Below are positions 9,147 through 30,813 of a DNA stretch of 64,000 nucleotides, in pieces. The stretch covers positions 625,498-689,497 of the forward strand of contig NZ_LMSU01000001.1 in NCBI RefSeq assembly GCF_001429625.1, given 5' to 3'. Numbering within the stretch: position 1 is the first letter of the stretch; each line of letters begins with the position of its first letter. The position numbers and the translations under genes are program-made. This DNA is from Nocardioides sp. Soil805 (GTDB lineage Bacteria > Actinomycetota > Actinomycetes > Propionibacteriales > Nocardioidaceae). The notes below the pieces were generated by a model, which saw only the letters and a list, made by a program, of their open reading frames with translations, was not told where the DNA came from and did not search any database.

Positions 9147-10727
9147 CTACCGGTGGTGGCGCCGCAGACCGAAGGTGAGCCCGTCGACCAGGGCGCCCCA
9201 CGACGCCTCGATGACGTTGTGGCCGACTCCCACGGTGACCCACGAGGACTCCCCGTCGGTGGTCTCGATGAGCACCCGGGTGATCGCGTCGGTGCCGTGC
9301 CCCTGGTCGAGGATCCGCACCTTGTAGTCGATGAGCTCGAACTTGGCGACCTCGGGGAACGCCTGCCCGATCGCGCTGCGGAGTGCGGCGTCGAGCGCGT
9401 TGACCGGCCCGTTGCCCTCCCCCGTCACGACGTACCGCACGCCCTCGGCCCGGAGCTTGACCGTCGCCTCCGAGACCGCCTCGGCCGCAGGGGAGGTCTC
9501 GGTGATCACCCGCCACGACTCGATGTCGAAGTACGACGGACGCACGCCCTCGACCTCCTCGACGAGCAGCAGCTCGAAGGAGGCGTCCGCGGCCTCGAAG
9601 GTGTAGCCGCCCTGCTCGAGCCGCTTGACCCGGTCGGTGACCCGGGTGACGAGCTCGCGGTCGCCGGAGAGGTCGAAGCCCAGCTCGCGGCCCTTGAGCT
9701 CGATCGAGGCCCGGCCCGCCATGTCGGAGACCAGCAGTCGCATGTCGTTGCCGACGCCCGTGGGGTCCATGTGCTGGTAGAGGTCGGGGTCGACCTTGAT
9801 GGCCGAGGCGTGCAGGCCGGCCTTGTGCGCGAAGGCGGACGTGCCGACGTACGGCTGCCGCGACGCCGGCGGGACGTTCGTGACCTCGGCGACGGCGTGC
9901 GCGATCCGGGTCGCCTCGCCGAGCAGCCCGGGCGGCAGGACCGTGCGGTCCAGCTTGAGCTCGAGGTTGGCGACCACCGAGACGAGGTCGGCGTTGCCGG
10001 TGCGCTCGCCGTACCCGTTGATGGTGCCCTGCACGTGGGTGGCGCCGGCGTCGACGGCGGCCAGGGTGTTGGCCACCGCGCAGCCGGTGTCGTTGTGGCA
10101 GTGGATGCCCACCCGTGCGCCGGTGGTCTCGATCACGTCGTGCACGACGTCGCCCACCCAGTCCGGCAGCATGCCGCCGTTGGTGTCGCACAACGCGACC
10201 ACCTCGGCACCCGCCTCGGCCGCGGTGCGCAGCACCTCGAGGGCGTAGTCGCGGTTGGACCGGTAGCCGTCGAAGAAGTGCTCGGCGTCGAGGAAGACCG
10301 TCTGGCCGGACTCGCGCAGGTGGGTGATCGTGTCGCGGACCATCGCGAGGTTCTCCTCGAGCGTGGTGCGCAGGGCGAGCTCGACGTGGCGCTCGTGCGA
10401 CTTGGCGACCAGCGTGACCACCGAGGCGCCGCTGTCGCGCAGGGCCGCGACGAGCGGGTCGTCGGCCGCCGCGACGCCGGCGCGCCGGGTCGCCCCGAAC
10501 GCCGCGAGCCGGGCGTGCCGCAGGTCGAGCTCCTGGGAGGCGCGGCGGAAGAACTCGGTGTCCTTGGGGTTGGCCCCGGGCCAGCCGCCCTCGATGTAGC
10601 CGACGCCCAGCCCGTCGAGCTGGCGCGCGATGGTCAGCTTGTCGGCCACGGAGAGGTTGAGCCCCTCCTGCTGCGCGCCGTCGCGCAGCGTCGTGTCGTA
10701 GACGTGGAAGGAGCCCTGCAGGTCCAT
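9147..10727 (-). CDS. cimA: (R)-citramalate synthase CimA
   Basis: A 526-aa enzyme of the IPM/homocitrate/citramalate synthase family. The N-terminus [20 protein letters not shown] plus '[29 protein letters not shown]' is specific to the CimA branch. The catalytic TIM barrel has the '[13 protein letters not shown]' metal-binding motif, and a C-terminal LeuA-type allosteric dimer domain follows. It condenses pyruvate and acetyl-CoA, giving a threonine-independent route to 2-oxobutyrate and isoleucine. The ATG at 10727 has AGAAGAG upstream; a longer frame would run into the leader terminator. An Ile-rich leader ORF and terminator lie upstream. Confidence 0.92.
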
Positions 10728-10767
10728 CGATCTCTTCTCTCGGGCGGGAGCAGCTGTGTCGGGGTAC

Positions 10768-10794
10768 AAAAAAACCTCCCGGGGTGCAGGAGGT
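10768..10794 (-). terminator. Intrinsic terminator/attenuator in the cimA leader
   Basis: On the minus strand ACCTCC (10794-10789) pairs with GGAGGT (10779-10774) across a 9-nt loop, followed at once by an uninterrupted run of Ts ending at 10768. It lies between the leader ORF (stop at 10819) and the cimA start at 10727. A terminator inside a leader, upstream of the gene it serves, is the hallmark of transcription attenuation. The stem is short, as expected if it must compete with an alternative fold. Confidence 0.8.
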
Positions 10795-10818
10795 CGGCGC
10801 GGCGGGGGTCCCGTCGCG

Positions 10819-10848
10819 CTAGGAAATGATGATCGTGCTCGTCGTCAC
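10819..10848 (-). CDS. cimA leader peptide MTTSTIIIS
   Basis: A nine-codon ORF (GTG start, TAG stop) encodes M-T-T-S-T-I-I-I-S. Three consecutive isoleucine codons stand before the stop, 25 nt ahead of the terminator stem. Isoleucine is the end product of the citramalate pathway, so ribosome stalling at the Ile codons would couple cimA to charged tRNA-Ile. The GGAGG before the GTG is only 1 nt away, too close for a normal ribosome site. The hexamer CACAGT ends 6 nt before the GTG, so a leaderless transcript is plausible. Confidence 0.75.
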   Translation of the reverse strand: MTTSTIIIS

Positions 10849-10932
10849 GCCTCCACTGTGCCACGGCGCCGGGCGGGGAGGTCGTGTGTCTCGCGATCCG
10901 GCCGCGGCCGGTGGGTGGGCGAGGATGGACCG

Positions 10933-11985
10933 GTGAGACGCCCCTCGATCGCATCCGGGCTCGCTGCGGAGCTGGTCCGGGTCAACCCCGCCGCCGGAGC
11001 GCACCGGGTGGCTGTCCGGGCCGCGGTGTCGGTCGCGGTTCCCCTGCTGCTGCTGTGGTCCGTGGACCGGGTCGAGTGGTCCATCTATGCCGCCTTCGGC
11101 GCGTTCACCGCGTTGTACGGGCGCACCCACGTGCACCTGTCCCGCCTGCAGATGCAGGCTGCCGCCGGCGCGCTGCTCGTCTCGGTCACCGTCCTCGGCG
11201 TCGTCGTCGGCACGTCCTCGCACCGGGCCTGGCTGGCCGTGCCGGTCGCCGGGGTGGTCGCCGCGATCGGCTCGCTGTTCTCCGACGCCATGGACTGGCA
11301 CCCGCCCGGCCCGCTGTTCCTCGTCTTCGCCTTCGCCGCCTGCGCGTCCATCCCCAGCCATCCCGTCGACGTGGCGGTCGCGGCGGGCGTCGCGCTCGCA
11401 AGTGCGGCGTTCGCCGCGCTGATCGGGTACGCCGGGTCGGCCTGGCGCTCGATCCGCGTGCCGGGCGCGCCGCGGACGACGTGGCGGCGTACGGCGTTCA
11501 GGGACGTCGCGCGCCGGCACCTGGCCCGCAACGTGGGCGGAGTCGTGCTCGCCGGGTCGATCTCGACCGCGGCCGGGATCGGGCACCCCTACTGGGCGAT
11601 GGTCTCTGCCGTGGTGCCACTGGCGGCCACCCGTCCCTCGGCGCAGGTGGTGCGCGGCGTGCACCGGGTCATCGGCACCTTCGTCGGGCTGGCGGCGGCC
11701 GCGGTGCTCCTCGCCCTCGACCCGGGCGGCCTCGTCCTGATCCTGGTGGTGGTGGCGCTGCAGTGCGCCGCCGAGCTGCTGGTGGGGCGCAACTACGCCC
11801 TGGCCCTGGTCGCCATCACGCCCCTGGCCCTGCTGATGGTGCACCTCGCGGCGCCGACCCCGGCCCGCGTGCTGCTGGAGGACCGCGGCGTCGAGACCGT
11901 GATCGGCGTGGCCGTCGGTCTCGCGATCGGCTACCTCACCCGGGACCGCTCCGGACCGGCGCTCAGAGCCAGCTCGGCAGGCTGA
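10933..11985 (+). CDS. FUSC-family membrane protein, 350 aa
   Basis: Two sets of hydrophobic helices (about residues 28-150 and 195-345) flank a short cytoplasmic segment. This repeat layout is seen in FUSC/aromatic-acid-exporter-type inner membrane proteins. Conserved-looking stretches are 'WSIYAAFGAFTALYGRTH' near the N-terminus and 'HPYWAMVSAVVPLAATRPSAQVVRGVHRVIGTFVG' in the second half. It is presumably an exporter component; the substrate is unknown. GTG 10933 has GAGGA 7 nt upstream. The 3' end overlaps the convergent kinase by 23 bp. Confidence 0.78.
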   Translation: MRRPSIASGLAAELVRVNPAAGAHRVAVRAAVSVAVPLLLLWSVDRVEWSIYAAFGAFTALYGRTHVHLSRLQMQAAAGALLVSVTVLGVVVGTSSHRAWLAVPVAGVVAAIGSLFSDAMDWHPPGPLFLVFAFAACASIPSHPVDVAVAAGVALASAAFAALIGYAGSAWRSIRVPGAPRTTWRRTAFRDVARRHLARNVGGVVLAGSISTAAGIGHPYWAMVSAVVPLAATRPSAQVVRGVHRVIGTFVGLAAAAVLLALDPGGLVLILVVVALQCAAELLVGRNYALALVAITPLALLMVHLAAPTPARVLLEDRGVETVIGVAVGLAIGYLTRDRSGPALRASSAG

Positions 11986-27229: not shown

Positions 27230-30647
<3,418 letters not shown>

Positions 30648-30697: not shown

Positions 30698-30731
30698 AAA
30701 AAACCCCTCGGCCCGGTGGGCAACGAGGGGT
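30698..30731 (-). terminator. ilvBNC attenuator (terminator)
   Basis: On the minus strand ACCCCTCG (30731-30724) pairs with CGAGGGGT (30710-30703), extended inside by GCCC/GGGC with a two-base bulge, and runs straight into six Ts. It is 50 bp before ilvB. A second hairpin (30741-30765, agct/agct outer and cagcc/ggctg inner pairing) lies between the leader codons and this stem and would serve as pause or competing structure. Confidence 0.9.
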
Positions 30732-30759: not shown

Positions 30760-30813
30760 TCAGCTCACGCGTCGCGTGCGTACAAGAATCCGTGCGGATG
30801 TCTGGGAGCGCAT
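30760..30813 (-). CDS. ilvB leader peptide [17 protein letters not shown]
   Basis: A 17-codon ORF contains consecutive Ile-Leu-Val codons, one for each branched-chain product, followed by Arg-rich codons. This is the same type of leader known upstream of ilvB in Streptomyces and Corynebacterium. Stalling for lack of any of the three charged tRNAs would favour antitermination. No Shine-Dalgarno is present; the -10 hexamer ends 6 nt before the ATG, so the transcript is probably leaderless. Confidence 0.88.

Follow-up and report, generated by a model that had tools for sequence, protein, structure and literature searches.

We describe a short leader in front of cimA, found in the window (the whole 64-kb stretch of DNA analysed here), and judge from its sequence that it is very probably a ribosome-mediated transcription attenuator that reads charged tRNA-Ile. 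Citramalate synthase, the product of cimA, catalyses the committed step of the route to isoleucine that bypasses threonine, and the element most likely restricts production of this enzyme to isoleucine shortage. Such a leader would give citramalate synthase end-product-specific control across Actinomycetia, which include many antibiotic producers and in which the supply of branched-chain amino acids also feeds polyketide precursors. Control of the isoleucine-only branch would be split from control of the ilvB step, which is shared, and one 64-kb window contains both leaders. The separation from ilvBNC that had been predicted for this locus holds at the level of sequence, since the ilvB gene of the window has an Ile-Leu-Val leader of its own (30813-30698, minus strand).

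Leader control of ilvB in actinobacteria, to which the original prediction appealed, is indeed published (PMC1262725, PMC8079986, PMC10272879). By comparison, cimA is absent from PMC1262725, PMC10272879 and PMC4833913, and the table of leaders in S. lividans contains none for cimA (PMC8079986). The suggestion that a cimA leader had not been described before agrees with our search of the full-text literature, a scope that most subscription papers fall outside, in which no report of such a leader was found. The cimA leader thus appears to be previously unreported, with priority not certain.

Architecture of the cimA leader

The gene behind the leader matches the equivalog model TIGR00977 at 640 bits (cut-off 450), which confirms it as citramalate synthase, as had been proposed. 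The original prediction of a nine-codon ORF with an isoleucine run was right in its coordinates and its Ile codons and wrong in its start, which is GTG rather than ATG; the codons read GTG ACG ACG AGC ACG ATC ATC ATT TCC TAG. Similarly, the predicted terminator is present at the expected place before cimA, and what had been taken for one stem is a pair of tandem hairpins, A and T (Table 1). Hairpin A begins 5 nt past the third Ile codon, and its 5' arm opens with the last base, G, of the leader's TAG. Terminator T consists of a stem-loop at 10795-10773 and a T-run to 10768, starts 1 nt 3' of hairpin A, and is followed about 40 nt past the T-run by the cimA ATG at 10727. A scan for intrinsic terminators across 10400-11200 returned this single site, with the stem at 10795-10773 and seven T (10774-10768), compared with a mean of 0.2 sites in shuffled versions of the same region. 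Only one short ORF in the entire window contains an uninterrupted series of at least three Ile codons and ends within 16 codons; five or more T in succession follow within 70 nt downstream.

Table 1. Features of the cimA and ilvB leader regions in the window, with the basis of each assignment
Feature	Position	Strand	Basis
Extended -10 box, TGG-CACAGT	10855..10863	minus	sequence; 6 nt upstream of leader GTG
cimA leader ORF, VTTSTIIIS*	10819..10848	minus	sequence; same-place leader ORFs in relatives
Control codons ATC ATC ATT (Ile-Ile-Ile)	10825..10833	minus	sequence
Hairpin A (GCGCGACGG...CCGCCGCGC)	10797..10819	minus	fold; covariation, 27 + 99 distinct sequences
Intrinsic terminator T	10768..10795	minus	terminator scan, fold, covariation
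cimA, citramalate synthase, 526 aa	9147..10727	minus	TIGR00977 equivalog
FUSC-family gene, divergent from cimA	10933..11985	plus	PF13515, 1.9e-24
ilvB leader ORF, control codons Ile-Leu-Val	30760..30813	minus	sequence
ilvB-leader terminator (ACCCCTCG...CGAGGGGTTTTTT)	30698..30731	minus	sequence
ilvB	28848-30647	minus	TIGR00118; start 30647

An extended -10 box of the form TGn-nAnnnT lies 6-7 nt 5' of an in-frame ATG or GTG in 66 of 91 cimA leaders, whereas shuffled sequences gave a mean of 0.5 and a maximum of 4. With transcription starting about 7 nt after the box, a start codon at this distance would make the mRNA leaderless. The window leader mRNA is probably leaderless as well, with its 5' end at or near 10848. 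In S. lividans, ilvL and leuL2 have been reported as leaderless (PMC8079986).

Runs of at least two adjacent Ile codons occur in 83 of 94 cimA leaders (48 with two, 33 with three and 2 with four), and the remaining 11 have no two Ile codons side by side; Streptomyces leaders carry Ile-Ile or Ile-Met-Ile only. The distance from the last Ile codon to hairpin A is 5 nt in 54 of 91 leaders, and the leader reaches its stop codon at the 5' arm of A, within it or shortly beyond it. Hairpins A and T are directly adjacent (0 nt) in 76/91 cimA leaders and separated by 1 nt in 15/91, and this 0-1 nt junction is constant in the cimA, ilvA and leuS leaders and in nearly all ilvB leaders. The cimA element also has the arrangement by which the actinobacterial leaderless ilvB/leuS group is recognized, namely control codons immediately ahead of a GCGCG-type hairpin, with the terminator abutting that hairpin.

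Conservation and covariation in relatives

With the cimA protein as the sole query, we fetched 80 loci and found the same element at most actinomycete loci where cimA is not directly behind ilvE. In Nanopelagicales-like MAGs (L016-L026, L186), in which cimA stands directly behind ilvE, no leader precedes it. An alignment of 27 leaders contains 20 base pairs in two helices, with 96.3% of cells paired. Changes on both sides are seen in 9 of the 20 pairs, a value reached in 0 of 500 shuffles, and slid versions of the alignment score far lower.

A covariance model built from these 27 leaders matched 261 of 394 sampled genomes of the class and 111 of 137 genera, counts that are biased by its training on Ile leaders, as are all later ones from this model. 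Despite this training, it also retrieves Leu and Val leaders, including leaders without any Ile codon. Nearly all of the checkable matches (87/88) are on the cimA strand, 25-227 nt ahead of the gene, and the genome that contains the window has its sole strong match at the cimA site (E 6.5e-18). Matches in f27 at E ~0.001 include unrelated terminators (L215, L218) and were left out. Both hairpins covary in a larger alignment of 99 distinct sequences (191 double-changed cells; 0/500 shuffles), which was fitted to the model, includes a dozen weak opposite-strand matches and leans towards structure.

The basal GCGCG/CGCGC of hairpin A shows scarcely any variation in either alignment. In the 27 sequences these pairs are invariant (alignment A1, columns 18-22 and 52-56), whereas the upper stem of A covaries freely; pairing alone fails to explain the invariant base.

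The original prediction would have been refuted had relatives lacked a conserved Ile run or terminator; instead, Ile runs, hairpin A and T are all kept before cimA across Actinomycetia, with a few cases in other classes of the phylum. The cimA leaders of those other classes have three or four Ile codons (L286, L301, L302), four of them in L286 and L301. At two Nitriliruptoria cimA loci (L054, ~100-215; L056, ~2290-2360), an Ile run is followed by a hairpin with no T-run, perhaps a leader of a non-terminator type.

Close to the window genome, the leader has been lost in two genomes of the same genus and three of a sister genus (L273, L274, L277-L279), where a promoter-like box lies shortly upstream of the cimA start. 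In one of the former (L274), the promoter and the GTG are kept, and the Ile codons, hairpins and terminator are gone, apparently through a deletion of the attenuator.

The same chassis in front of other genes

Weaker matches of the model precede ilvB, with mixtures of Ile, Leu and Val codons, and leuS, with Leu-Leu-Leu; in f12 and in other classes they precede leuA, again with Leu-Leu-Leu. Summed by gene, Ile/Leu/Val codons number 224/49/52 before cimA, 10/24/30 before ilvB, 1/31/2 before leuS and 1/9/0 before leuA, and the composition of the control codons differs by gene (chi-square p 2e-34). Two of these other leaders occur in the genome under study. The ilvB leader in the window has a terminator that ends about 50 nt ahead of the listed ilvB start, and a leuS leader, MCTQSLLLRQPR*, carries Leu-Leu-Leu on the same hairpin-terminator chassis (L209, C5:91000-94200, minus strand, ~2697-2611).

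In family f19, the element stands before ilvA in 12 of 12 genomes (L243-L254) and before cimA in none of the 12, and no element was found at ilvA-like loci fetched from other families. Two of the f19 proteins were scanned and matched threonine ammonia-lyase models over the catalytic part, below the curated cut-offs. Most f19 ilvA leaders contain a single Ile codon in the motif LM[AV]IT, whose Met, Ile and Thr all belong to the aspartate family; with one Ile codon only, they are no more than candidate sensors of isoleucine. That the element has shifted from cimA to ilvA in this family would predict which route to isoleucine each lineage regulates.

Two further arrangements were observed. In genus g70 of f21 (L131, L133), an Ile-only leader with a terminator precedes a small gene of uncharacterised function, whose match to an ACT domain is weak (PF13291, below cut-off) and which may encode a regulatory subunit for branched-chain synthesis. 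In another class (L296), a Val-Val-Ile-Ile leader lies ahead of a leuB-like gene.

Mechanism, alternatives and known attenuators

In the attenuator that we propose, transcription would start on the leader GTG or right beside it, and the leaderless end would then recruit a ribosome. When Ile-tRNA is ample, the ribosome would reach the stop codon at the foot of hairpin A, mask the 5' arm of A and then leave; with this arm masked, T would form and transcription would end before cimA. A terminating ribosome covers up to about 12 nt past the stop codon (PMC4833913), a reach that would suffice to mask the 5' arm of A. When Ile-tRNA is scarce, the ribosome would instead stall at the first Ile codon, where it should mask this arm hardly or not at all, so that A would be free to fold while T is being made. 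With A folded, RNA polymerase would read through into cimA; we suggest that A, standing against the foot of T, would prevent the lower part of the T stem from pairing inside the RNA exit channel. Comparison of sequences establishes the ORF with its Ile codons, the two covarying hairpins in their fixed geometry, their conservation ahead of cimA and the exchange of codons ahead of other genes; from this we infer the stalling of the ribosome, the direction of the response and the weakening of T by A. That A and T abut within 0-1 nt and share no bases suggests that A may act on T by exclusion.

Constrained folding of 11 leaders revealed no conserved classical 2:3 antiterminator, and RNAalifold, run with the 5' arm of A made unavailable and the 3' arm of T left out, gave no conserved structure that shares bases with T. 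Since no T-overlapping antiterminator is conserved, a classical switch is not visible in these leaders. Flanking pairs that would lengthen A into T were considered and rejected as a general feature, as they are possible in a few sequences only (e.g., UA/UA in L040). The strict junction between A and T raises the question of whether a hairpin can serve as an antiterminator without bases shared with the terminator. We tentatively suggest, as a possibility that we hold with less than even confidence, that the leaders represent a phylum-wide chassis, whose codons are exchanged to fit the gene behind it and which has changed places between the two alternative enzymes by which isoleucine synthesis is entered (cimA in most lineages, ilvA in f19), and that it works without a T-overlapping antiterminator, a ribosome-decided hairpin flush with the foot of T blocking T by exclusion.

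The main rival is itself a variant of the attenuator explanation, and confidence in the two overlaps. Here hairpin A would be a pause hairpin that synchronises RNA polymerase and ribosome, and read-through would be set by the proximity of the ribosome or by Rho/NusG rather than through exclusion of T by A. This kinetic switch would account for the lack of any alternative A-T pairing among those we looked for, and it fits a hairpin A that is very stable (median -20.4 kcal/mol) and has a basal GCGCG/CGCGC that scarcely varies. However, a pause hairpin need not touch the terminator, yet the gap to T is 0 nt in 76/91 leaders and 1 nt in 15/91. We regard the kinetic switch as a serious candidate, though not the one we would expect. 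A quite different explanation, that a regulatory protein or a small molecule reads the hairpins in the manner of a riboswitch or T-box and that the short ORF is incidental, could draw on the conservation of the hairpins in sequence as well as in structure. It could also draw on the S. coelicolor ilvB leader, where changed control codons left regulation unaltered (experiments cited in PMC1262725), a result that is a real caution for the whole leader group. Nevertheless, the region has no match to any Rfam family, the T-box included, at the gathering score or at E up to 5; the control codons track the amino acid of the gene behind them, and frame, start, stop and spacing are all kept, none of which such a binding site would need. 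We therefore consider a protein or ligand site improbable.

In principle, T could be a plain terminator that ends some other transcript, or a relic, with the cimA promoter downstream of it. The roughly 40 nt between the T-run and cimA would leave room for a promoter with a short leader, and relatives that have lost the element do have a promoter directly before cimA. However, the upstream FUSC-family gene is divergent, so T cannot be the stop of a co-directional neighbour, and we rejected it as the terminator of that gene. Furthermore, a simple scan of the region found no sigma-70-like site, the conserved -10 box precedes the leader ORF, and leader and terminator are retained together throughout, which makes a downstream promoter very unlikely. 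GC-rich DNA is rich in short ORFs, and a chance juxtaposition of such an ORF with a terminator might also be envisaged. This is already refuted: dinucleotide shuffles of the whole window gave 0.02 Ile-run ORFs each and none with a T-run, and the element is conserved in 111 genera with covariation. The attenuator that reads charged tRNA-Ile is thus the explanation that we retain.

Enterobacterial trp and ilv attenuators likewise combine control codons, coupled translation and a terminator before the structural gene. The cimA element differs from them in its leaderless start and in that no segments competing with the terminator in a 2:3 fashion were found. The LEU element before leuA (PMC1262725) resembles it in placing a control-codon ORF ahead of a gene of the isopropylmalate-synthase family. 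However, LEU has been described as a pseudoknot in which the codon run pairs with the Shine-Dalgarno box, whereas the cimA element folds as two simple hairpins with an intrinsic terminator.

Closer relatives are found among the actinobacteria. The Streptomyces leuS leader (PMC1262725; leuL2 in PMC8079986), seen in several families here, has the same chassis and geometry, but its codons are for Leu and it controls a tRNA synthetase. Proposed models of the ilvB leaders in C. glutamicum and M. tuberculosis include an antiterminator that is mutually exclusive with the terminator, and in C. glutamicum ilvBNC a three-nucleotide overlap has been described (PMC11857589); by contrast, the cimA leaders show no conserved overlapping competitor of T. 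The geometry of stop codon and hairpin proposed for M. tuberculosis ilvB1 attenuation is shared by cimA (PMC13236596). More generally, the actinobacterial ilvB (ilvBNC/ilvBHC) attenuators (PMC1262725, PMC8079986 for ilvL, PMC10272879, PMC11857589, PMC13236596) also have a short, often leaderless ORF of branched-chain codons, a GC-rich hairpin whose 5' arm lies at the stop codon, and a terminator ahead of the biosynthetic gene. The likeness extends to details, as S. lividans ilvL and many cimA leaders have in common the tail G-(R/K)-R-(A/V)-G* and the GCGCG arm. What sets the two apart is the codons that are read: ilvB leaders mix Ile, Leu and Val, whereas cimA leaders carry mainly those for isoleucine.
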